DNA of 64,000 bases from Paramacrobiotus metropolitanus (Eukaryota; Tardigrada; Eutardigrada; Parachela; Macrobiotidae), in contig NW_026570222.1 of the NCBI RefSeq assembly GCF_019649055.1, positions 434,001 through 498,000 on the forward strand, given 5' to 3'. A program made the translations under genes and the position numbers. The notes beneath the pieces are model-generated. The model did not search any database, was not told the DNA's origin, and saw nothing but the letters and a program-made list of their open reading frames with translations. Below, piece after piece: positions 15,872-28,190 of this stretch. Each line of letters starts with the position of its first letter. Positions within the stretch are counted from its first letter, which is position 1.

Positions 15872-15877
15872 CAGTGC
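15872..15877. repeat. Target-site duplication, left copy (CAGTGC)
   Basis: CAGTGC abuts the outer end of the left inverted repeat and is repeated exactly at 27302-27307 beyond the right one. A perfect 6-bp match at both outer ends supports a single insertion event. Confidence 0.85.
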
Positions 15878-16117
15878 TATGGCGTACCGATTGCGCAAAC
15901 GTTTTACGAACAAACGTTTTTTAGTTTTCAATCAAATGTTACACACATATAAATCTGACAAATGTTTATCAACAAATTTCTAACAAACAAATGCCATTGA
16001 CAAATGCTTTCGTTACCAGACAAATGTTTTTCACTATCAGACAAATGTTTGTTGACAAACATTTGTCTTTTACTGACAAACGTTTTTCACTATCAAACAA
16101 ATGTTACTGACAAATAT
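15878..16117 (+). repeat. Left terminal inverted repeat
   Basis: About 240 bp that match the right end in reverse complement. The first 69 bp are identical, and about 6 mismatches occur over the first 160 bp. The inner part is built from repeats of the type TGACAAATGTTT, plausible transposase-binding sites. At 16040-16067 a perfect 12-bp stem (GACAAATGTTTG, loop TTGA) is present here and missing from the right end, so the left repeat is some 30 bp longer. Confidence 0.88.
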
Positions 16118-17056
16118 TAGAAGCTCACCACGCAAATCTGACAGTGAGTGCGGACTGTGTGGTTACGTTCAGCACGTTCGACTCACCAAAATGTTGAGTC
16201 ATCTGTGTCTGCCATTCAGCTGTGTTTAGTGTGCTAGTTTCGCGCGCGAAAACAGTCAAATTTCGCGCGAAGCGCGAAGATGACGGACAGATTTGTTTAA
16301 AATCTGTCAGAAATTAGAAAAATCTCAAAAAAATAGCGACAGTTTCAGCGAATGAACTTAACGAACTTAACGAACGTTTCAGCTTAACGAAGCGGTGTCT
16401 TTTGGCCCTGAAAACTTGTACGCTTCGTCATTTTGACGGCTTACTTACTCTAGTCGAAACTAGTGTGATCGCATTTGTCTGTCAGAGTTTCAGAAGTTTT
16501 AAAGATCTAATTAATTGGAACATCCGTTAACACTTTGCTGAAAATGGAAAATTCAGGGACGTGCCGTTGGTAATCAGAAAAACCCGAAAAGCACGAAAAA
16601 CGAAGCTTGCTCGGAAATGACTGACTCGCGTGGCGTGCCGGTCTATTGGTCGGGAGTCCCCCAGACTCAAAAGTCCGTCGCGTGACGAAACATACTGCAA
16701 ATTTGCAATGGATTTGTTTTGCTGATCCAATGAATCATTTTCACGGCCGACAAAATTGTTTATTCATCAAGGTGCTACACTGGTATACCATTAAACGACT
16801 GGTATGGCTTTTAAATGACAGTTTTTATTTAATTAGTTTGCGGTTTCTTGCTTTAGCAGGTATCAGAGTGGTTAGAAACTAACAGGAAGTTGTTTAGTAA
16901 TTGTGGATTATCTTCTAACAGTACGGTTCGGGTGGCTTGAAATGGAGGATGTGACACGCAATAGACTGGCTGATTTGTTGCAGGAGTGGAAGCATATGTG
17001 ACCTTGGTACTGTATCTCCACTGATACGATTGGATCCTCCCTGGTGATGGAGGAGT

Positions 17057-19080
17057 TATGGCGGCTGGCGCGCCCGCTGCGGTGGCAACCGCGACTGCTG
17101 CAGTGGACGATCTGAATATCGCGGCCAACATGGAGGTCTTCTTGAAGAAAGACGATGGTTCTTATCTTGGGCTCAGGCCAAATCGCCTCCACGCAGTCGT
17201 TTCCTGGTCTGTTTGAAGACAGAGGATCCCAGGAGGCGGTTAGGAAGTGCATCACTGATCCTATGGTGCGAGTGATTTTGGTTCAGAATGTCCAGAAAAA
17301 AGGTAGGCGTTTCATGGGGCATGCAATATATAGATATTGAATGACGATGTGGCGGTTCCACGTGCAGTCGAAGTGCGTAGCAGTGTTTTTGATCAGTTAA
17401 TCTGGCCTTTCATTTGTAATTCTTGGGTTTTTCTGGCATATAAGCGCACCTTGTTGCTACATCCCGATTTTTGACATCATTGTGTGATAGACGCTTTGTA
17501 CTTTGTATTGGGATAAGACGCATTAATTTTTTTGAACATAAATTATATTTAAATTACATTACATTACTGTAAGTAAATTAAATTACCACGTTTTTTCTAT
17601 ATTTTACAAAAAATGCTTGCAGGAATTTTTTGTGGATTTCGGAATTTTATAATTATTCATAAATTATTAACCTGTTATTCAGTTTGTTGTACAGATATGT
17701 GTTGTGTTTTGTGATTGTCTGGTAGCTTCAGGCAGATTGATCGTCTGCCGAACGTCTGGTAAAAAAACAGGTCTCGAAGTGGCAAACTGATTTCAACTGA
17801 GTAACTACAAACTACTCGTACGTGGCGTAAGTGTCATGTAGCGCTGTGCTGCATGTATTGTACATAGCTGCTGGTTGAACATGTGCATATGTGCTGCGGA
17901 GAAGCTATGGAAATTAATAGTTGCTGTCCTGTTTTACAGAAGAAGAACCGGAAAATGACGCCAGTGACGCTGGTGGTGAAGTGTCTTATACGATCTCCAC
18001 CGAAATCGCTTACAAGGCGCAGAATGTTGGCAGGTATGTTACTTTTAATGTTTTCCAACTGTCGTTGTGCGGTTGTTGAGGAAGTCTGGTGAATCTGTTT
18101 TTAATTTTTTAGTGCTTAGAAAGTTTACAACGTAACGGTGTCGTAAATATAAACGCTAAAATTTAAAAAAAACTTTTTTGAGAAGCTGTGATCTTTTGTA
18201 TTTCCAACATTATTCATGCACTAGTAATTGCCACATTTTTTTGTAGCGTGGCAATATTGAAACGAGGAGCAGTTATCGACGTCAACAAAGACATTCCGTC
18301 CCAGCTCATCGTTTTGACTCGAAAGATGATCACCGCACAAAGTGTTTCATGCAATTATTGCCGGCATTATGGCACCATTTTTTAAATCTATTATCCGCAG
18401 CGAAAGTGGCAGTGGAAAGTTAGTTGACGCATTTCGGCTGCCATTTACCTGATAGTGGTAGCATTTCTGCTGGGCTTATCCGTGGAATTGTTTTGCAGAG
18501 AGAATGATAAAATTGTTAATACTGCGGAGAAAAAATTGGCTAAGCTGGAAACCGCGGAAGAAGGTCGCAAAGCGACAGTCCAGGATTTTGATCAGTGGAT
18601 AAACGATCCGAACGTTCTGAATCAGCTGCAGAATGGGGTCAATCGATGGATTAGGGAAATTCAAAAGGTACATACCGTATGTCTGTGTTTGAAATTTTGC
18701 GAATGGTGTCCCGTTTCGTTTATGGGCGGCATGGTGTTTCGGTTACCTTTTGCTTCGAGTTTGTAATAAGTTACTAATAAAAAAAAATGTTGATTTTATT
18801 ACATTTTATAGTTTGAAATTGCAGAAGTTGTTGAACTCTTTAAAATTGAATAACTTGTTATATTCGGTATTGGAGCAGTGGTAAATGACTACTCGTACTG
18901 GATGAAGCAGTGCACTGTCGCTTTTTCGTAATAAGATTTGGTTCCTGGAGCTTTGTTAACATTGCTTTACTTTTAGATGTGGCTTGTCTGCAGGTGACTA
19001 AGCTTGATCGAGACCCATCAACTGGACGAATTAAATGGTTTCTTCCGGTTTTTACAGATTTGATACACCATTTTCAGTAA
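17057..19080 (+). pseudogene. DYNC1H1-like: Broken fragment of cytoplasmic dynein heavy chain N-terminus
   Basis: Pieces match the tail of cytoplasmic dynein 1 heavy chain in order, with introns kept. They are 17155-17302 (ITDPMVRVILVQN), 17940-18033 (GGEVSYTISTEIAY), 18247 to about 18419 (VAILKRGAVIDVNKDIPSQL), 18499-18667 (LNQLQNGVNRWIREIQK) and 18994 on (VTKLDRDPSTGR). The third piece needs a frame change near 18,322 to keep matching. About 35 family residues between the EKKLAKLE and VQDFDQWI segments are missing. After GRIKW the similarity stops and a stop codon follows at 19080. The upstream frame starting MAAGAPAAV at 17057 is also out of frame with what follows. The real protein exceeds 4,000 aa, so this is about 5% of it. 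It lies between the transposon ends and is best read as captured host DNA that has decayed. Confidence 0.8.
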
Positions 19081-19099
19081 TTTTCAAATTTTATTGTAG

Positions 19100-19184
19100 T
19101 GCTGGCGACTGCAGCGGTCCGTATAAGGAAGCGGTAGCAGAATTGATGAGAGACATTTTTAACTGTAAAGTCGACAACCACTAA
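19100..19184 (+). pseudogene. Scrap of a second HECT-protein exon
   Basis: After an acceptor-like TTTATTGTAG, this piece encodes AGDCSGPYKEAVAELMRDIF and then a stop. It matches the start of exon 7 of the element's HECT gene on the other strand (AFDCNGPYKECIAQLLAGF), with the same exon phase and many changed third-codon positions. It is therefore an old paralogous fragment, not a fresh copy of the resident gene. Confidence 0.6.
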
Positions 19185-19199
19185 ATTAGACGTGCATGA

Positions 19200-19980
19200 T
19201 TAATCAGGTGGCCTGCTATTAAGCATTTTCTGTGGAATAAGGAAGGAATTTTGTTTTTGCCGAAGTTGATTTTTTCAGTTTCTTAATTTAGCTATGATCT
19301 CGGCATTGGTTACGTTTCAGACTAGAATGTTAAAACGATGCTACGTCCAAACTGCCATTTTTTGGACTGATTAATGTATGTACATACAGGGTACTACCAT
19401 TTGGCATGGTTGCTAAACTTTGTTCTTTTTGTACGAAATAAAAGGCACACAGAAAGTCAGTTTCGTAATATAATACTAAATTTCATTACTGCAATTTATT
19501 ACGATTTAGACCTTGTCCATACACATGTATCCAAGTACAGTTCGCATAAACTTACCCGGCATTACTCAACTATCAAAGAAAAATTCAAACACATGTACAG
19601 CTCGCTCTAATTTAGCCAGTAATAGCCGCACAGCAAAACGAAATTCATAAGCGCACTTCCGTTCTCATCTAACGTTGAAAAACTGAGGAACTCTACATTC
19701 ACGCGCAGACATCATTGACATTAAAAAATATCAACTACGATGGGAATGGAAAAAATTTAAGAAAGCGTAACTTGCTCATCAAATTGGTAAGTCCGGTTAG
19801 CTGTAAATGCCCGTCCATTAGTCGTAAAAACGATCCGCTCGATATCTGATTACTTCCACACCACAATTCTGCAAGAAATAAACTGCTATAAGTAATACGT
19901 CTTCTGTCGGCTGACGCTATCGAAAAAATTACTGAAACTAGCTGTGTAAAATTAAGGCATCAACTTATTACCTCGCTGTT
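19200..19980. other. No gene seen; 3' flank of the HECT gene inside the transposon
   Basis: AT-rich sequence between the plus-strand dynein remnant and the end of the HECT gene. The open frames here are short and unlike known proteins. Confidence 0.5.
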
Positions 19981-20001
19981 TTATTTGAACTGGAAATACC
20001 C

Positions 20002-23000
20002 CTACATCTTGTTGTCGACCGCGGCGATGCAGTCCTTCAGCAGTTCAAGAAGTTTTTCTTTCGAACGCACTCCAGTTGGCAACTTCAAGATGTTCGAACA
20101 TGTTCGCGATGTAGGCCGGCGGTTTTCATCACGTTCAGCGAAAAAATCGATGGAAATTCTCGGTACAGTAGGTATGATGTTAGATCCGGTGATAAATCTA
20201 AGCAGTTGCTTCCGTTCACGACAGTCCAGATCCTCAACGCAGATCTCGTCCAGCCACGCAACCATCTGCGCTTGTTCTTCAGTCGCATTTGCCTCATTCA
20301 GTGGTCTGAACTGCTCTAACATATCGCGGCCTTCAATCACTGATCCGGCATAAAGGCCTTCTTCAAAAGGCTTCCAATCGGGTCGCATTTGTAACAGTTC
20401 CTATAAACCGAGTGTGTGAGAAGCAAATGTTTGTTAAAATTTAAAAACATACTTTGCCCATTTTCCCAGCCGTTAATCCTTCATACAGGAACTTCAGATT
20501 TGCAGAACGTTTGGTGCATAGCTCATAGACAGCCATGTACCGGCAAAGCGTTTCCCGACCAAGTTTAACCAATGAAGACCACTGCAGATAAGTTAAACAA
20601 TATGCGATGAAAAGGCCGTTCGGTATGTAGTAAATTTTTTACTTACCGGGAACGCGGGGTTACTGTCTGCCCACATGCTAAAATTCTCCATTTCTTCCAA
20701 ATAGATCTCACCACTGCCACGCAAAATGTCTTGGATGATATCTCCTATAGTTGGTGCGAAGACGAAAATGTCATTCAACTGGATTGGAAGGTTCAAAAGA
20801 TAACGTAACGCGGAGGAATTAAACCAGTCCGGGAAAGGGCATCCATGCAAGATGCCCTCGCGAAGCAAAAATCCAAATGCACGTAGTGCATTGTGTCCTT
20901 CTTCCGTAAAAATAGGGACAGCGGTAATGAGCACAAATCCCTCATCATCCTCTTCATCTTTCGAATACCCATCAAATAAAGCAATGCCCAAGTTCGGAAT
21001 CTTGTATTTTCGAAATCCGGCCAGAAGCTGCGCAATACATTCTTTGTACGGTCCATTACAATCAAAAGCACTACAAAAACAGAAACCTGGCAGCAGTAAT
21101 AGACTTTAAGCTGTTATTACGTTAAAGCGTTCGAAAACTCACTTGCTCTACACATGCTGTGCCATGCTGTGCTTTACAGTAACTGCATACAACATGCAAT
21201 ACAACGAAGTACGTCCGGCTTAATATAACGTTTTCAACTATTTTTACATACTCGTCCATTCGTACGGTCATCCTGCCAGTCTGCGCCAAAGCGTCCGCCC
21301 GAGCCAGATAAAAATCGATGTAATTTTGAACGTTGTCGTTTTCACCTCGGATCCAATCGAAAAAGATTTCCTTATCCGGGCTATCCGGTTTGTCCATAGG
21401 GAAAACGCCGGTAACGCTAAAGCAAAGTTCTTCTCTCAAGTCCCGCAATGTTAGGCGACTGTTGGTTGGCTCAGGTAACGCTACCGAACCCATATTGACT
21501 TTCAGCTGGAATTTAAACGAACAACATTATAAAAAATTAGAGAAGGAAAACTGCAGAAGGAATGCGTATTACCCTAGGTAAATTTCGCCCGGTATTTGCA
21601 GCCTCGTCCCCACTATCGCCTTCTGAGGCATCGACTGTTATGATATCCAGAACTGTTCGCTTTCCACTCAAGCTTCCGTTTCGATGCGCTGTACTCACAC
21701 CAGAAGAACCTCCAAAGCCACCTGGTGCACGCCGAGGTTGAGCCGGAGATGAAGAAGGAGAAGGTGAGTCACTGAAGAACACTCGTGGAGGTCGACCTGT
21801 CCCGCGGCTTATCCCCGATGTACTCTGTCCAGATGTGATAGCAGGTCCGGATGCACTAGGTCCGGATGTGCTAGGTCCGGATGTACTAGGTCCGGAGATC
21901 ATAGCAGACTGCTCGTCTGAATTATAAAAATTGATCTGACCGAGTAGAATCATTTGGGATGCAAGTTTCATAATTTCGAGATATGTGCCATAATATTACC
22001 TTCAGTATAACGCAGCGCCAGCTCATCCACAGAAATGCCTTTAGACTAAAAAGCAAAAAAATCGAAATGCGGCATTTCAGACTTCAGCTTCTTAAAACCT
22101 CCATTTTGTACACTTTACTTACATCTGCTAACTGCTGCACAATTTCAAACGGAATTGTTATCATCCCTTCCCTGATGGCGATATACATGCGCCGCCGCGT
22201 CTCTTGTGGAAGTTGTTCAGTGTATCTGAACATCAAACTAAAATTTATCGGAAAGTTTATTAAAACAACATTTTATACATACCGTTGGTATTGTGACCAA
22301 GTAGCGGAGGACAGCGGCAAATCCCACGAGTGAACATTATTTCCTTCCGGCTTATACTTCGGCTTGTTCTTAGTCTGATTAGTTGCAGGTATGCGGGTGA
22401 GCAGAATCCACGGCCGGCCTTCCAGAAAATGATTAAACGCAGCCATGATTTTGGAATTGATGAAGTCTCCAGTGAGATGCAGTTTCGCGAAATTAATATC
22501 TTTTACTAATCCAGCCAAATGCATCAGCTCAATTTCGTTTGCACCCTCACTGCAAAATTAAGTATGTGGGCATACGAAAGGTCACAACACCATCAAAACA
22601 CCATACACTGCTGAAGCACAAGAATTACAATTTCACCTGAATTACAATTATTGTGACAATCAGCATATGCGCGAAAGCAGCGATGAGACATACACATCGT
22701 TAATTCATTAAATTAAGATTTAAAATTCTGATCTGCAGCAAAACCAGCAAATAAAATTTGTGAATAAAATTACTGAATATCCATTAGTTCAGTTTGAAAC
22801 GCATCACAAACCAATAATCATGACAGATTTTCAACATGATTAATTTACAACAACACTTACGATTGTCTCGCATGTGGAATGGGGTGATCATCGTTAAATC
22901 GAAACAAATACACCGTCCACATATGAATCCACGCTACTTCTGGATCCTCTTCTTCAGCACGCGGCGCCGTCGGTGTAGCAGGCGCTGAAGATCGCCAACC

Positions 23001-23609
23001 TTCTCCCCGGAAACGCTTTACCTGTCCATGACCGCGTCCACGATACCGACCACTGGGCGTTGAGTTAGCCAAGCTGGATGTCCCAAAACCGCAACTTGAT
23101 GGAAACCCGTATGTACTCTGCCCACGGACAGGGAATCTTGGAATACCAGCTAATCCCATACTGACTTGACTGCCGGGTAGCCCATATTGCTGCATCATAT
23201 TCGGCTGGTCTATAGTTCCGCGCATCCCGAATCCCGTGTTCATATTATGAAGAGAGCTGCGCACTGTACTTCCCGTTGCAGCCCCACCGATTCCTCCAGG
23301 CACTTGCTCTGCACTATTTCTGACGGTACTGACGGCAGATTGTCCAGTACGACCAGCATTGCTCGATATGACATTGCTCACGTTGCCGGTAATCGCTTTT
23401 TCTGGGTTCCCAGATCGCTGGTCCACTTCCGCTCTAATAATGTCAGTGCCGTTAGCCAAAACATGCATCCCATAATAGTGGCCACATCCCCGATTCCCGC
23501 ACAGGCTTCGTCCTACTGGACCACTCCATGAAAAATCCATTTCCTGGGGTAACGGAATCTGACAGGCGCAGCTCTGGCATCTGTAAACGAATTCTACTGG
23601 ATCACCCAT
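20002..23609 (-). CDS. Transposon-encoded HECT-type E3 ubiquitin ligase, 9 exons, 904 aa
   Basis: Nine exons close in frame: 23609-22861, 22549-22283, 22225-22123, 22045-22000, 21916-21573, 21505-21252, 21070-20647, 20581-20453 and 20400-20002. HECT ligases take ubiquitin from an E2 on a cysteine and pass it to a substrate. The N-terminus has a zinc-ribbon-like cluster (C11, C14, C37, C42, H44). The middle is low-complexity, rich in Ser, Gly and Pro, with a short GPSTSGPSTSGP tandem. The HECT region runs from about residue 588 (DAFDCNGPYKE) to the end. It includes LLRFITGSNIIP and the active-site segment RPTSRTCSNILKLP, with Cys873 at the catalytic position. It is about 317 residues, slightly short for HECT, and resembles animal G2E3-like sequences. 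An ATG at 23663 would add 18 residues; I chose 23609 because MGDPVEF leads directly into the cysteine cluster. Confidence 0.82.
21843..21897 (-). repeat. 18-bp coding tandem repeat in the HECT gene
   Basis: Three near-identical 18-bp units (core TAGGTCCGGATG on the plus strand) encode GPSTSGPSTSGPSASGP in the linker before the HECT region. The copies differ by single bases, typical of recent replication slippage in a disordered linker. Confidence 0.75.
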
Positions 23610-24359
23610 ATTGAGAAACCACATGCGCAGTGCGCGCGACAAAAAAGTCAAATAATTCCACAAAAACTCAGTAATGAAGCTTGTTCAACACTAAATTTAA
23701 AAAATCAGGGAATTTGCCACAAGCAACTAATTTTACCGCGTAATCAAGAGGCGGCAATCACGGCATTACACAAGCTTTGGTCAGAATTGACCAATGATAT
23801 GGGAGTAGCTCTAATAAGCCAATGGCGGTCCTTGCAGTGGTGGCGGTATACTGATGGGAACCAGAAAACACACCCCATCGGCGGTAATTTTCATGTCCAC
23901 AAGCCGCCATTCACTGTATTGTAAACCATTGTTTACTGCTATTAAAATGGACTTTTCCGTAAGCTCAACTGCAATAGGGGAAAATCAATATACCCGAATG
24001 CCTGTTGTTCTCATTAATAATACGGTACCACAAAACAATATCTTCACCATGAAAATGTGTGTAATACAGTACTCAGGAGAAAAACATAAATAATGCAGAA
24101 ATCCTGTACAACCGACACACATAATCCAAACAGAAGCATACTGCATTACGTCAGACAAGCAACTCAATATCAAATTTCTGTACTCATAACCACAACTACC
24201 GTAAAACAAGGCTGGCAGGAGAAATGCTTGCTTATTTTTAATGCGCATTAAACAATTTACCGTTACCGTTACCTAATATACGAATACATTCATGACCGGT
24301 ATCAACCGTGCACTCATAACGTCGACTCACTTTGCAGACACACAAGAAGCAGCCTTTCT

Positions 24360-26816
24360 TCAACCAAACTGATGCTCTATTAATTCCTTTGCTTCACGAA
24401 AAATGTTAACCCCATAAACTCCATCATCCACTGTAACATCCATGCTAGTCCGAATCAGATGAGCTTCATCAGGAAAGCTACTGACCACATCCATGACCGG
24501 CACTGAATCTCTGGAATGGGCGACTTGGTTGCGTATGTACTGCGGAAAGTTTTGAGGTTCATCTACATCAGCATCCGGCAACTGGTTATCTTCGCTTAAT
24601 ACGTGGTGCAGCGGGAATCCTTTCAGGCCTTTTTGCTGACATCCTAGAAGAAAAAGCTGTCTTGGCGACTTCCCGCCTTCCGTTGTAAGCCTATGGTTAT
24701 TGAAGAGCGAACTGAACTGCTCAAGCTTTTCTTGGATCTTGTTCAAATAAACCAAATGTAAAATCATCATATCGCGGGGGCTGGTAAAGTCCAAAATTCC
24801 CAAATTTTCCATTTGTATAAAGACTGATCGGAACAGCTTAATCACAACGCGGCCTAAATCCCTCCACAGCCGTTCTATCCGCTGATTGTGAACCGACGGT
24901 CCCATAATGATACTTGCGCGATTTTCTCCCATGTAATGCTCCATCCAACGTGCTACACCAAAATTTTCCCCTAAATTGAACAATAAGACAAACGTTTTAA
25001 CAACAAATTATGCAACTTCAAAAAAACAAACGAAGCAGCTACGGTTACAAATAAAACTCGTAGGAAGACCGCTGCATAGTTTTCAGATTTCAGCGCCGCT
25101 AAACGAAGAAAATCCGTTGCTCTTTAAAACTGTACTCGATATTGCCCAAATGAAGTGCACAGTATTTTAAAAACCCTTAAATATATTAATAATTACAGTT
25201 AAGAAATGTGCGCTAATATTGCAGAGAAATAGGTACTGTACGTATCATTAACACTTCTCACTCACCACCACAATCGCTTCTCACTCTCGACGGCACACCC
25301 CATGCTTCAGCGCCAGCCAAGAATGCTTGCAGCACCGTGCTAGCGCGATTATTCGTCGCCACAACAAGCGAAATAACCGATCGCGAATATCCGTCTATGA
25401 TACCATGAATTACGAATCCCCATCGCACCAACTTATGGTTTCCATCCATATGCCACAAAGCGTTCGGCCCAGCATTTGAATACACGCGTCGCGGTACAAA
25501 ATTTAAAAAACGGTTGGCAACTCCGTACGGATCAAGTCGTTTCAAAGAAGCCAGAATCCTTCTACGCTGCACCACCAGTCCGCCCGTTTTTAGCTGGCCA
25601 TGAACATAGCGACAACCGACATTCGGGAATGAGTTCAAAATATCCGCAATCACCAAATCCAGATCATCATCCGTAATGTCTACAAACTTCAAAGCAAGCA
25701 AATTCAGTTATTAACGACTAAATACAGCTATATCTGTTAGTCACTAAGCGTTGCAATAAATCGGTGCAGTTCTATTCTGTACGAGTGTCCAAAAAATCTA
25801 AAAATTTTTACACTTACTGTTGTTCAAAATAACACAATAAAACCAGCAAAAAATACCGCTAGCAGAACAGTGCAGCATAAAAATATTTTTACCGCGAATG
25901 GATCATCATCATACAGCATTAGAGATACAGCAGTGTGTAGTTTTGCACAGCGAGCCCATCGAAGGACATATCTTAATTCAGGTACAAATCATCGTATGAT
26001 AACCTCCACGCCTGCAAGCTGTACGAGTCTGATATCTTTATATATTTCAACAAATTAAGGATAAGAAATAGAACTGATAATGCTGTCCATGATAAGTTGA
26101 TAACTGTCATGTATTGAACGAACGGCATAATCTTTTATTATGTCCGCTCGGGACAGCAGCAAACAACCAACTAAACTCTAAACATGGCAACAATAACGGA
26201 CAACAACAATACCGTTGCTGGGGCACATTAGCCATAGGCCATTATCCATTTCACGAGATACTCGTACACTATTTGTACGAGTACAAAATACACTACAGTA
26301 ACCAACGGGCTTACTTTTTGATTCAGGTTAGCTGCTGCCAATCTGTAAGTAATTGTCCTAGGCGAGACTCCATAAAACCCAGCAATATCGTTAACAGTGA
26401 ATCCTTCCAATCGTAGATGGGCCAAATCATCCTCTGGGATCAATATTTTCCCGTACGAATTAGTGTCCAAACTGACAACAAAAACAGATCTGGTTCCATC
26501 CTCGTCTTCTTGTAGTAAGCCTCGTAAATCGTCAGCACAGTGTACCAACACATCAAACAACTCTTGCGCTTGCACTGTCTGATCCTCCGGATAATTTTCG
26601 CAAATGTTTCGCGTGTATCTATTAAAAGGAACAATTATAAAAAACAAGAATATCCCGCAAACAAGTTTCTTTTCCAGTTGTTTCCTACCCAAGTAAGTAA
26701 TCGATCTGCGTCAGCGCACCGTCAACGCCATCCTGATCGTGATCCCCATTCGGAGCTCTCAGGAATCTTGCTGCACGCCGTACAACTGAATAAGCAAATT
26801 CATAGAACTGATCCAT
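24360..26816 (-). CDS. Transposon DDE integrase, 4 exons, 487 aa
   Basis: Four exons join in frame: 26816-26689, 26618-26315, 25686-25266 and 24970-24360. Integrases of this RNase H-like fold cut and join the transposon ends. A helix-turn-helix-like stretch (LRLEGFTVNDIAGFYGVSPR) precedes the catalytic core. The catalytic acids are D225 in LWHMDGNHK, D282 in RVRSDCGGEN and E317 in VHNQRIERLWRD, with 34 residues between the last two. The same motifs are typical of the integrase-core proteins abundant in fish, cnidarians and other animals. No frameshift or stop is present. The start at 26816 (MDQFYEFAYSVVRRAARFL) fits the family N-terminus; an upstream ATG at 26882 is in the same frame. The gene lies head-on to the right transposon end and upstream of the HECT gene on the same strand. 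Confidence 0.88.
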
Positions 26817-27095
26817 TAAAATCCCGCTACCTTTACACAAAGAGAGACTAGGAGAAAACAAAAATCTAAGGGAAAACTTCAAAGGAAGCCAGCAACGTCA
26901 CAACGGTAAAAACCAAAACAATCCAGTACCGTCAAAAGCAGAATTCCAGCACCAACATGGACTTCCAGCAAAATACGGAGATTACATTGCCCTGTAATTG
27001 GACGGGTGGAATTGGAATTACAAAAATGTCAGAGTCCGTAGTCGCGCTTCCGGTGCACGAGACGGCAGTTACATTTGATCAAGACATTTCATTCT

Positions 27096-27301
27096 GACAT
27101 TGGACAGTAACATTTGTTTGATAGTGAAAAACGTTTGTCTGATAGTGCAAAACATTTGTCAGGTAACGAAAGCATTTGTCAGTGACATTTGTTTGTTAGA
27201 AATTTGTTGAGAAACATTTGTCAGATTTATTTGTGTGTAACATTTGATTGAAAACTAAAAAACGTTTGTTCGTAAAACGTTTGCGCAATCGGTACGCCAT
27301 A
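27096..27301 (-). repeat. Right terminal inverted repeat
   Basis: About 206 bp, the reverse complement of the left end, finishing GGTACGCCATA at 27301. Similarity fades near 27,096. It contains repeated CATTTGTCAG-type words, the complement of the motif in the left end. Confidence 0.88.
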
Positions 27302-27307
27302 CAGTGC
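27302..27307. repeat. Target-site duplication, right copy (CAGTGC)
   Basis: Exact copy of 15872-15877. It lies 2 bp from the stop codon (27310-27312, minus strand) of the retroelement fragment, so the transposon landed just behind that frame. Confidence 0.85.
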
Positions 27308-27309
27308 GC

Positions 27310-28190
27310 TCACAGCGAAGACGCACTGGCAAAGCTACTGCAGAGTGCAGACACGTGGTCGAATACGCATCTGTTGTTTATGACCTTCTCTGTGGTGATA
27401 AGTGCTTCGATACCATCTCGATCTTCTCTTGGGTTAAAAGGTAACGTACCCAAAACAGCCGTAGCATTTCCTTTTACAACGGCGAGACTAAAACGCTGCT
27501 TAATGAAAGCAGTAGAACGCGCTTCTCCAGTTAAGTCTCGAATTTTACGGCCCTTGAAATGCAACAGTTCATTGAAAGCGGGGCCAACATCTCCCAACGT
27601 CTCAATCACTAAAGGATAAAAAAGTTTCCATTTTCCACAAACGAATATGTCCGGCGCTTGGCATTTTCTGCGAGCTGAGCCACGTATCCAGCTTTCTTCG
27701 AGCTGCCGGTGACATGAGAGTCTGCAACCCGTGCACCAAATGGTTACATCCCACACCAGTGGTTTCCCTTCGCGGACTGGAATCAGCGTCATGCCGTCGG
27801 GCCTTTTCCCGTTCACACTCGATAAGCCGGTCGGTTCCAGTTGACAAGGAAAACCAGCGCTTTCATGGCAATACTGTTCATTTCTTTGTGCCGCGCCCAT
27901 CGTCCTTTGGTTTGACTTATTGCAGGACAACCCGTGGTGACCGTTAGTCTCTACTTGCTTACCACATGCGATACAGTTGTGCGCCACTTCCACTGGCAAT
28001 CCTAACCGCAATGCGACACCGATTCGAACATCGTCGTTTTTAAGGAATGTACCCAGACATGGAACGGGCAACGCATTCAACCAGGTTCCAGAATCTCAGC
28101 CAGCAAGACAGCCCTGTTACGTTCGTTTCCTTCTGTACTCGACATCAGCATGGCAATGTCCCGCTCAATCATTGCCCATTGGTGCATCCC
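27310..28190 (-). pseudogene. Retroelement C-terminal fragment (zinc knuckle plus KRPDG domain)
   Basis: The frame reads GTWLNALPVPCLGTFL, then RIGVALRLGLP, a CCHC-like knuckle (CIACG, then GHHGLSC), then GKRPDGMTLIPV and PLVWDVTIW. This order is typical of the end of reverse-transcriptase polyproteins found across invertebrate genomes. The KRPDG and WDVT pair looks like a PD-(D/E)XK nuclease-type core, which is my inference. Upstream of about 28,085 the frame must shift by one base to continue as RNRAVLLAEILEPG. No reverse transcriptase core is present, so it is 5'-truncated. The TIR of the neighbouring DNA transposon interrupts its 3' flank. Confidence 0.7.

Follow-up and report, generated by a model that had tools for sequence, protein, structure and literature searches.

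We analyzed a 64,000-nucleotide stretch of the genome of the tardigrade Paramacrobiotus metropolitanus (NCBI RefSeq assembly GCF_019649055.1, contig NW_026570222.1, positions 434,001 to 498,000 of the forward strand), hereafter the window, and found that its positions 15878–27301 are an 11,424-bp DNA transposon, bounded by matched ends and a target site duplication, in which the gene of an integrase-like transposase is accompanied by a gene for a putative HECT-type E3 ubiquitin ligase. This lineage of elements carries the HECT gene as a standing second gene. The gene is paired with the transposase gene, the two have diverged together, its coding sequence is under constraint, and its active-site cysteine is kept; taken together, these observations indicated a standing gene and not an accident. 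We put the probability at about 0.85 that the window holds a complete, recently moving IS3EU-type cut-and-paste transposon, of a lineage in which a HECT E3 with its own cysteine/histidine-rich module is a standing second gene that helps the element.

The element is flanked by exact copies of the 6-bp target site duplication CAGTGC at 15872–15877 and 27302–27307. Its left terminal inverted repeat (15878–16118) begins with TATGGCGTACC and its right one (27097–27301) ends with CGGTACGCCATA, so that the termini of the element read TATGGCGTACC.. and ..GGTACGCCATA. The outermost 70 bp are identical between both ends, the inverted-repeat arms of 173 nt are 96% complementary, and, interrupted by a gap of 35 bp in the right arm, the similarity extends to approximately 240 bp on the left and 205 bp on the right. 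The motif ACAAAYGTT occurs six times directly and once inverted in the left end and five times in the right end, where it stands as the reverse complement on the plus strand, as against once in the 11-kb interior of the element and three times in the remaining window; these repeated motifs are putative transposase-binding sites. A genome search with the joined flanks of the element and a single copy of the duplication gave 164 candidates, of which 40 were scored; two of these were the flanks themselves, the other 38 were matches of a repeat to the outer right flank, and none was an unoccupied copy of the site. Adjoining the insertion, positions 27310–28095 hold a 261-codon open frame that gave no Pfam match and belongs to a repeat with dozens of genomic copies; it resembles the terminal part of a retroelement frame.

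The transposase gene lies on the minus strand at 24360–26816, with four exons (26816–26689, 26618–26315, 25686–25266, and 24970–24360) separated by GT-AG introns, and its spliced reading gave a protein of 487 amino acids with the catalytic residues D225, D282, and E317. Pfam assigned it to the rva_4 integrase core (E 9.6e-73); beyond rva_4, the sole match among integrase cores was a sub-threshold one to rve. Ahead of the core, Pfam gave no integrase zinc domain and weak, sub-cut-off helix-turn-helix matches, the HHCC motif as such not having been searched for. The OTU or Ulp1 domain or zinc finger ahead of the core that marks Ginger1 was likewise not found by Pfam in the 487-residue transposase, and a search of solved structures with the transposase gave no match. 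IS3EU elements have TA..TA ends and usually 6-bp duplications (PMC10045372), and the termini of fungal members read TAYGG..CCRTA (PMC12730594). TA..TA termini in 17 of 17 long elements of this genome, exact 6-bp duplications in 15 of the 17, and a DDE integrase-like transposase fit a placement in the IS3EU superfamily.

The HECT gene, also on the minus strand, spans 20002–23609 in nine exons (23609–22861, 22549–22283, 22225–22123, 22045–22000, 21916–21573, 21505–21252, 21070–20647, 20581–20453, and 20400–20002); with its GT-AG introns spliced out it encodes 904 amino acids. Pfam recognized a HECT domain (E 3e-15), which occupies residues 588–904 (20002–21070), and alignment of the C-lobe with UBE3A placed C873, in HTCFNVLLLP, on the cysteine of the UBE3A TCFN motif. 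Residues 1–60 (23430–23609) form a cysteine/histidine-rich module, CxxCxC ... C ... CxH ... H, that belongs to no Pfam family; besides HECT, no Pfam family was found in the protein at E 0.01, and there was no PHD in the N-terminal part. Having a HECT domain with an active-site cysteine, the protein has the features that define a HECT-type E3 and is a putative ligase. A reading with a further small HECT-like exon at 19091–19200, for which the sole basis was one 40-bp inverted match to exon 7 (73%), was not adopted. The initial annotation of the window, made without database searches, had placed the ends and the CAGTGC duplication exactly and had correctly described a 487-residue multi-exon integrase with the three catalytic residues and a 904-residue multi-exon HECT protein with the catalytic cysteine, both on one strand; its identical outer run of 69 bp is in fact 70 bp long.

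The genome (169.8 Mb in 533 contigs, given here as C numbers, which are labels of this analysis) was searched with the left end of the element, the transposase, and the HECT protein, which gave at least 49 matches, at least 113 exon matches, and at least 77 matches, respectively. The HECT matches fell, by our own grouping, into 20 loci. All 20 had an rva_4 transposase within 20 kb, as against 0 of the 12 other HECT loci obtained by a Pfam HECT search; with 28 rva_4 places in the genome, the chance for a random site is approximately 0.007. The places used in this proximity test were compiled by hand from the HECT, transposase, and Pfam searches. Both ends could be defined at 17 of the 20 loci, and these 17 insertions hold both genes or their remains. 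The ligase had been proposed to be a standing passenger, with the suggestion that integrase and HECT genes be sought between the same ends in other copies; both the co-occurrence at all 20 loci and the 17 insertions speak for that proposal in this genome, and no HECT copy of this type at a host locus away from a transposase was found among the 20 loci.

The insertions with defined ends are C2:449878-461301 (the window element), C8:2384186-2398472, C5:585373-602832, C26:897781-915124, C112:159810-201641, C34:383542-398632, C2:1429497-1444585, C85:355695-371868, C2:2579710-2596437, C4:2275291-2291396, C64:840587-855865, C121:206497-230768, C3:2712260-2726739, C421:6217-22976, C61:555145-573138, C88:13874-32810, and C28:190128-206656. 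Every one of them starts with TATGG and finishes with CCATA. No two of the 15 exact 6-bp duplications are alike; at C4 five of six bases agree, and C8 has the 5-base duplication TATAG. The fact that the duplications all differ indicated that these are separate insertions. The ends of C88 and C28 were obtained by a scan scoring the end match and the duplication, which returned a single perfect score for each, and BLAST independently gave the same inverted repeats. Neither flank comparison nor the end scan found the ends of C45, C312, and C86, the other three co-occurring loci; an inverted repeat at C45:386816/401358 was rejected as an element end since it had no matching duplication, and BLAST-derived end pairs at C137, C10, C37, C26:6711, and C2:1426104 were dropped since they did not match as ends. 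Two composite-looking insertions, C112 (41.8 kb) and C121 (24.3 kb, with two transposase copies), would be expected if the HECT gene and the transposase gene came from two elements inserted side by side or one within the other. This explanation is extremely improbable: the insertions are 17 separate ones, one matching pair of ends encloses both genes, and families with different end sequences show the same, which refutes it for the window element and likewise for the whole family.

By protein distance, the copies formed at least seven families: A (the window element and C8), B (C5, C112, C26, C34, and C2:1429497), C (C85, C2:2579710, C4, C64, and C121), D (C3, C421, and C61), E (C45, C312, and C88), F (C28), and G (C86). 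Families A–F differ from one another at 25–39% of transposase residues and 50–65% of HECT-domain residues, and G differs from them at 51–55% and 73–78%, respectively. Relative to the transposase gene, the HECT gene is downstream in A, B, C, and F and upstream in E, in both cases with the same orientation; in D the two genes converge on opposite strands, and in G they diverge. The HECT gene is present, in three gene arrangements, in every family with defined ends, a transposase core, and a length above 11 kb. The N-terminal cysteine/histidine module was seen in six of these seven families, E being the one from which it was not recovered. The transposase and HECT trees agree on the families, and the distances of the two proteins were strongly correlated: the Mantel r was 0.94 over 11 copies (a value reached in 0 of 5000 permutations), 0.95 with one copy per family (n = 7; 32 of 5000), and 0.75 for the six families other than G (138 of 5000). 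C45 and C312 match over the whole compared stretch, with 97.7% identity in the main block, and may be two alleles of one insertion. Among structural peculiarities, the left end of C61 is present in three copies (555145, 557190, and 559227) about 2 kb apart, each adjoining AAATTT, with one right end, and C88:13874-32810 has very long inverted repeats, with blocks over approximately 2 kb per side. Single ends resembling those of family C (TATGGAATWCCGAATGGCCGGGAG) occur at C137:275380, C10:1280652, C37:964576, and C2:1429419, with repeated blocks about 3 kb away and no matching second end there.

Selection was assessed by the ratio of nonsynonymous to synonymous substitution rates (dN/dS). For the window element and C8, the transposase gave a ratio of 0.09 over 465 codons and the HECT gene one of 0.32 over 869 codons. 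The C8 HECT gene is open through nine exons and encodes 920 amino acids in a model with one GC intron donor and one exon bounded by requiring an open frame. The ratio was split by domain for three pairs, of which C45/C88 was covered for the HECT domain only. In the window/C8 pair it was 0.11 for the N-terminal module (bootstrap 0.04–0.25), 0.47 for the middle region, 0.11 for the stretch before the HECT domain, and 0.23 for the HECT domain (0.14–0.35). The corresponding values for C3 and C421 were 0.11 (up to 0.54), 0.32, 0.42 (with an interval past 1), and 0.12 (0.03–0.26), and the HECT domain of C45 and C88 gave 0.27 (0.19–0.38). HECT pairs from different families were saturated at synonymous sites and yielded only a ratio of proportions of differences, pN/pS, of 0.54–0.58. 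Of the 20 HECT loci, 19 keep the active-site cysteine, and the one that does not, C61, is a broken copy; of the 24 transposase loci, 22 show the DDE triad, and two were covered incompletely. The HECT gene is thus under purifying selection in several pairs.

The element also contains captured host sequence. Positions 16572–19026 (plus strand) are the 5' part of the host gene for the cytoplasmic dynein 1 heavy chain, introns included, with 90–94% DNA identity to the host copy at C5:652737-655254. That copy runs on into the N-terminal domain of dynein, and no transposase adjoins it; the assignment rests on this domain in the source and on PDB matches to the cytoplasmic dynein 1 heavy chain. The piece is therefore a DNA-level copy with introns whose source is still in the genome. 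It is broken by two single-base deletions in one exon and an 87-base deletion in another, and plus-strand exons considered as a third element gene were rejected as being this broken fragment. The initial annotation had overlooked both the dynein fragment and the ACAAAYGTT motif. Because the piece differs from its source by approximately 6–10%, as compared with a synonymous divergence (dS) of 0.38 between the window and C8 HECT genes, the capture is younger than the split between the two elements; the dynein piece is already broken while the HECT gene stays open in both. The family B elements (C5, C112, C26, C34, and C2:1429497) similarly carry pieces of aminomethyltransferase and mitochondrial carrier genes, several of them with stops, at C5:597313-598050 and C5:590660-591034 in the C5 element. 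The presumed sources are C6:1126702-1127228 for the aminomethyltransferase and C62:686299-686601, a match that itself has one stop, for the mitochondrial carrier. Since the host pieces decay while the HECT gene stays open, the group takes up host sequence occasionally, lets it decay, and keeps the HECT gene.

These captures bear on the explanation that the HECT gene too is a host gene taken up by chance, in the manner of Pack-type elements, and amplified with the element without being used. The group does take up host sequence, as seen for dynein in the window and for the two family B genes, and constraint was weak in some HECT pairs. It accords poorly with the presence of the HECT gene, in its three arrangements, in all the families with long, fully bounded elements, with HECT-domain dN/dS values well under 1 in the three pairs split by domain, and with the decay of the pieces known to be captured (the window dynein fragment and, through stops, several family B copies). 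In addition, against 13 stretches from the 12 other HECT loci, the element HECT protein gave short and weak C-lobe alignments of 31–62 residues, with E 4e-6 or worse among the matches listed (four per query), and it appears to have no close relative among the other HECT loci sampled. We consider chance capture quite improbable.

Several observations weigh against a standing and useful HECT gene. Some copies are visibly degraded, and whole-gene HECT dN/dS was considerably higher in certain pairs: 0.53 (C5, C34), 0.61 (C26, C2:1429497), 0.79 (C85, C2:2579710), 0.64 (C2:2579710, C4), and 0.58 with a very wide interval (C45, C312). The intervals of family C reach 1, its transposase gave 0.84, and the higher whole-gene values include degraded copies. 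The agreement of the two trees is broken by family F, which joins D (support 65) when the tree is built from the transposase and B (94) when it is built from HECT; one exchange of the HECT gene involving this family is possible. Short copies with the same ends lack the HECT gene altogether: C51 (3.4 kb) and C231 (3.9 kb) retain transposase parts, and C12, C83, C14, and C88:417214 have family ends without such parts or with at most a trace. C4:3001692 and C6:949169 are also short, with family ends and the N-terminal part of the transposase only. The short HECT-less copies look like deletion derivatives. It had been noted at the outset that copies with the same ends that never contained the HECT gene would speak against the pairing; such copies do exist (C51, C12, C83, and C14), but they stand beside full copies that have it, and the objection does not hold in full. 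Finally, C86:257374-258333 and C158:197836-198798 hold open 436-codon rva_4 frames of another lineage, with 42% identity over the aligned part and no HECT match nearby.

Other sequence collections were also compared. Among the viral contigs searched there was one weak 58-residue match to the transposase and none to HECT. In the collection of prokaryote genomes there were 10 relatives of the transposase; two of these (48–49%; L087 and L088) are on contigs of 3.4–3.7 kb from a sponge-symbiont bin, which are probably sponge DNA, and L087 holds an open 441-codon frame. Neither contig has a HECT gene, and both are too short to count against the pairing.

Because the HECT gene persists over at least seven diverged families under purifying selection, it is expected to help the element; selection can act on a second transposon gene only if copies with that gene profit from it. 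Given the observed ends and duplications and the chemistry predicted from the DDE core, the transposase would bind the repeated end motifs, cut at TA..TA, and insert with 6-bp duplications. The HECT protein, judged by its domain and cysteine, would accept ubiquitin from an E2 on C873 and hand it on to a substrate that may be picked by the N-terminal cysteine/histidine module together with the variable middle region. The most likely substrate, at roughly even odds, is a nuclear factor of the host that takes part in silencing, surveillance, or repair. We favor such a target because the HECT protein has changed about twice as much as the transposase and because the TET/JBP genes of fungal IS3EU elements have been linked by their author to escape from silencing (PMC12730594).

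Alternatively, the HECT protein might be a transposition factor that ubiquitinates the transposase or the strand-transfer complex, which the proteasome or an unfoldase would then remove after insertion, on the model of ClpX, which clears the transposase of phage Mu. The divergence of both genes together suits this explanation, and the authors who described Ginger elements proposed that the ubiquitin pathway participates in transposition and argued that transposon ubiquitin/SUMO proteases may join transposition and repair (PMC2836005). However, the HECT protein evolves faster than its supposed partner: between family A and families B and C, 51–53% of amino acids differ in HECT and 25–28% in the transposase, and the window/C8 dN/dS was 0.32 as compared with 0.09. 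Transposases without a HECT gene also exist in another lineage. We regard clearance of the transposase or post-insertion complex as the main rival, less likely than a host target, and action on something else as less likely still. Going one step further, we would tentatively suggest, at somewhat less than even odds, that the HECT-carrying IS3EU lineage is old and probably occurs in other animals, and that its ligase tags for removal either the transposase complex or a host factor acting in defense, repair, or chromatin. The pairing suggests that mobile DNA may exploit the cell's protein-disposal system to spread or persist, and the manipulation of host protein turnover that the initial annotation had suggested is likewise a hypothesis. 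The pairing narrows the question to finding the substrate of one protein. Should that substrate act in silencing or repair, the ligase would be a natural means by which mobile DNA resists control by the host; should it be the transposase, the ligase would explain how the post-insertion complex is cleared in such elements.

Among host proteins, G2E3 bears PHD-like zinc fingers ahead of its HECT domain. The element protein resembles G2E3 and other host HECT ligases in its C-terminal HECT domain and differs from G2E3 in having no PHD-like fingers or other Pfam domain in its N-terminal part. It had been assumed that DNA transposons normally carry only a transposase, which is an overstatement: extra genes are known in IS3EU elements, in Kolobok transposons (PMC9587614), and in RAG-like elements (PMC7204232), and ubiquitin/SUMO protease domains in Ginger1 and other transposons (PMC2836005). 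A HECT gene in a DNA transposon was not described in the titles and abstract openings of the open-licence literature searched; a description in a database alone is possible. The IS3EU and GingerRoot elements (PMC10045372) share the TA..TA termini, the 6-bp duplications, and the DDE integrase-like transposase with the present element, which differs in having HECT; the main text of that report mentions neither HECT nor ubiquitin. The fungal IS3EU elements (PMC12730594) have TAYGG..CCRTA ends, 6-bp duplications, and standing extra genes, one of which is proposed to be anti-silencing, but their extras are a TET/JBP dioxygenase and an alpha-kinase, and HECT and ubiquitin go unmentioned in the accessible text of that study. 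Styx of Zymoseptoria (PMC10853768) is likewise a multi-gene DNA transposon, derived by its authors from a two-protein IS3EU element and searched for by them with 6-bp duplications, whereas its extra genes have GATA, CCHC, and DUF3577 domains, with no mention of HECT in the accessible text.

Two further systems connect integrase-like or RAG recombinases with ubiquitin. The Ginger1 elements (PMC2836005) are also integrase-like animal DNA transposons tied to the ubiquitin/SUMO pathway; there, OTU or Ulp1 proteases that would remove ubiquitin or SUMO are fused to the transposase, whereas here a separate ligase would add ubiquitin. The transposon-derived system of RAG1 and RAG1-like elements (PMC7204232) similarly combines E3 ubiquitin ligase activity with the recombinase, through the RING-type domain of RAG1 within the transposase protein itself, in contrast to the separate HECT gene of the present element. 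If the proposed role is right, the ligase would parallel, by way of degradation, both the anti-silencing TET genes known from fungal IS3EU elements and the deubiquitinase and SUMO-protease domains carried by other transposons, and a selected E3 ligase as second gene would place the active, target-choosing step of the ubiquitin pathway in a transposon.

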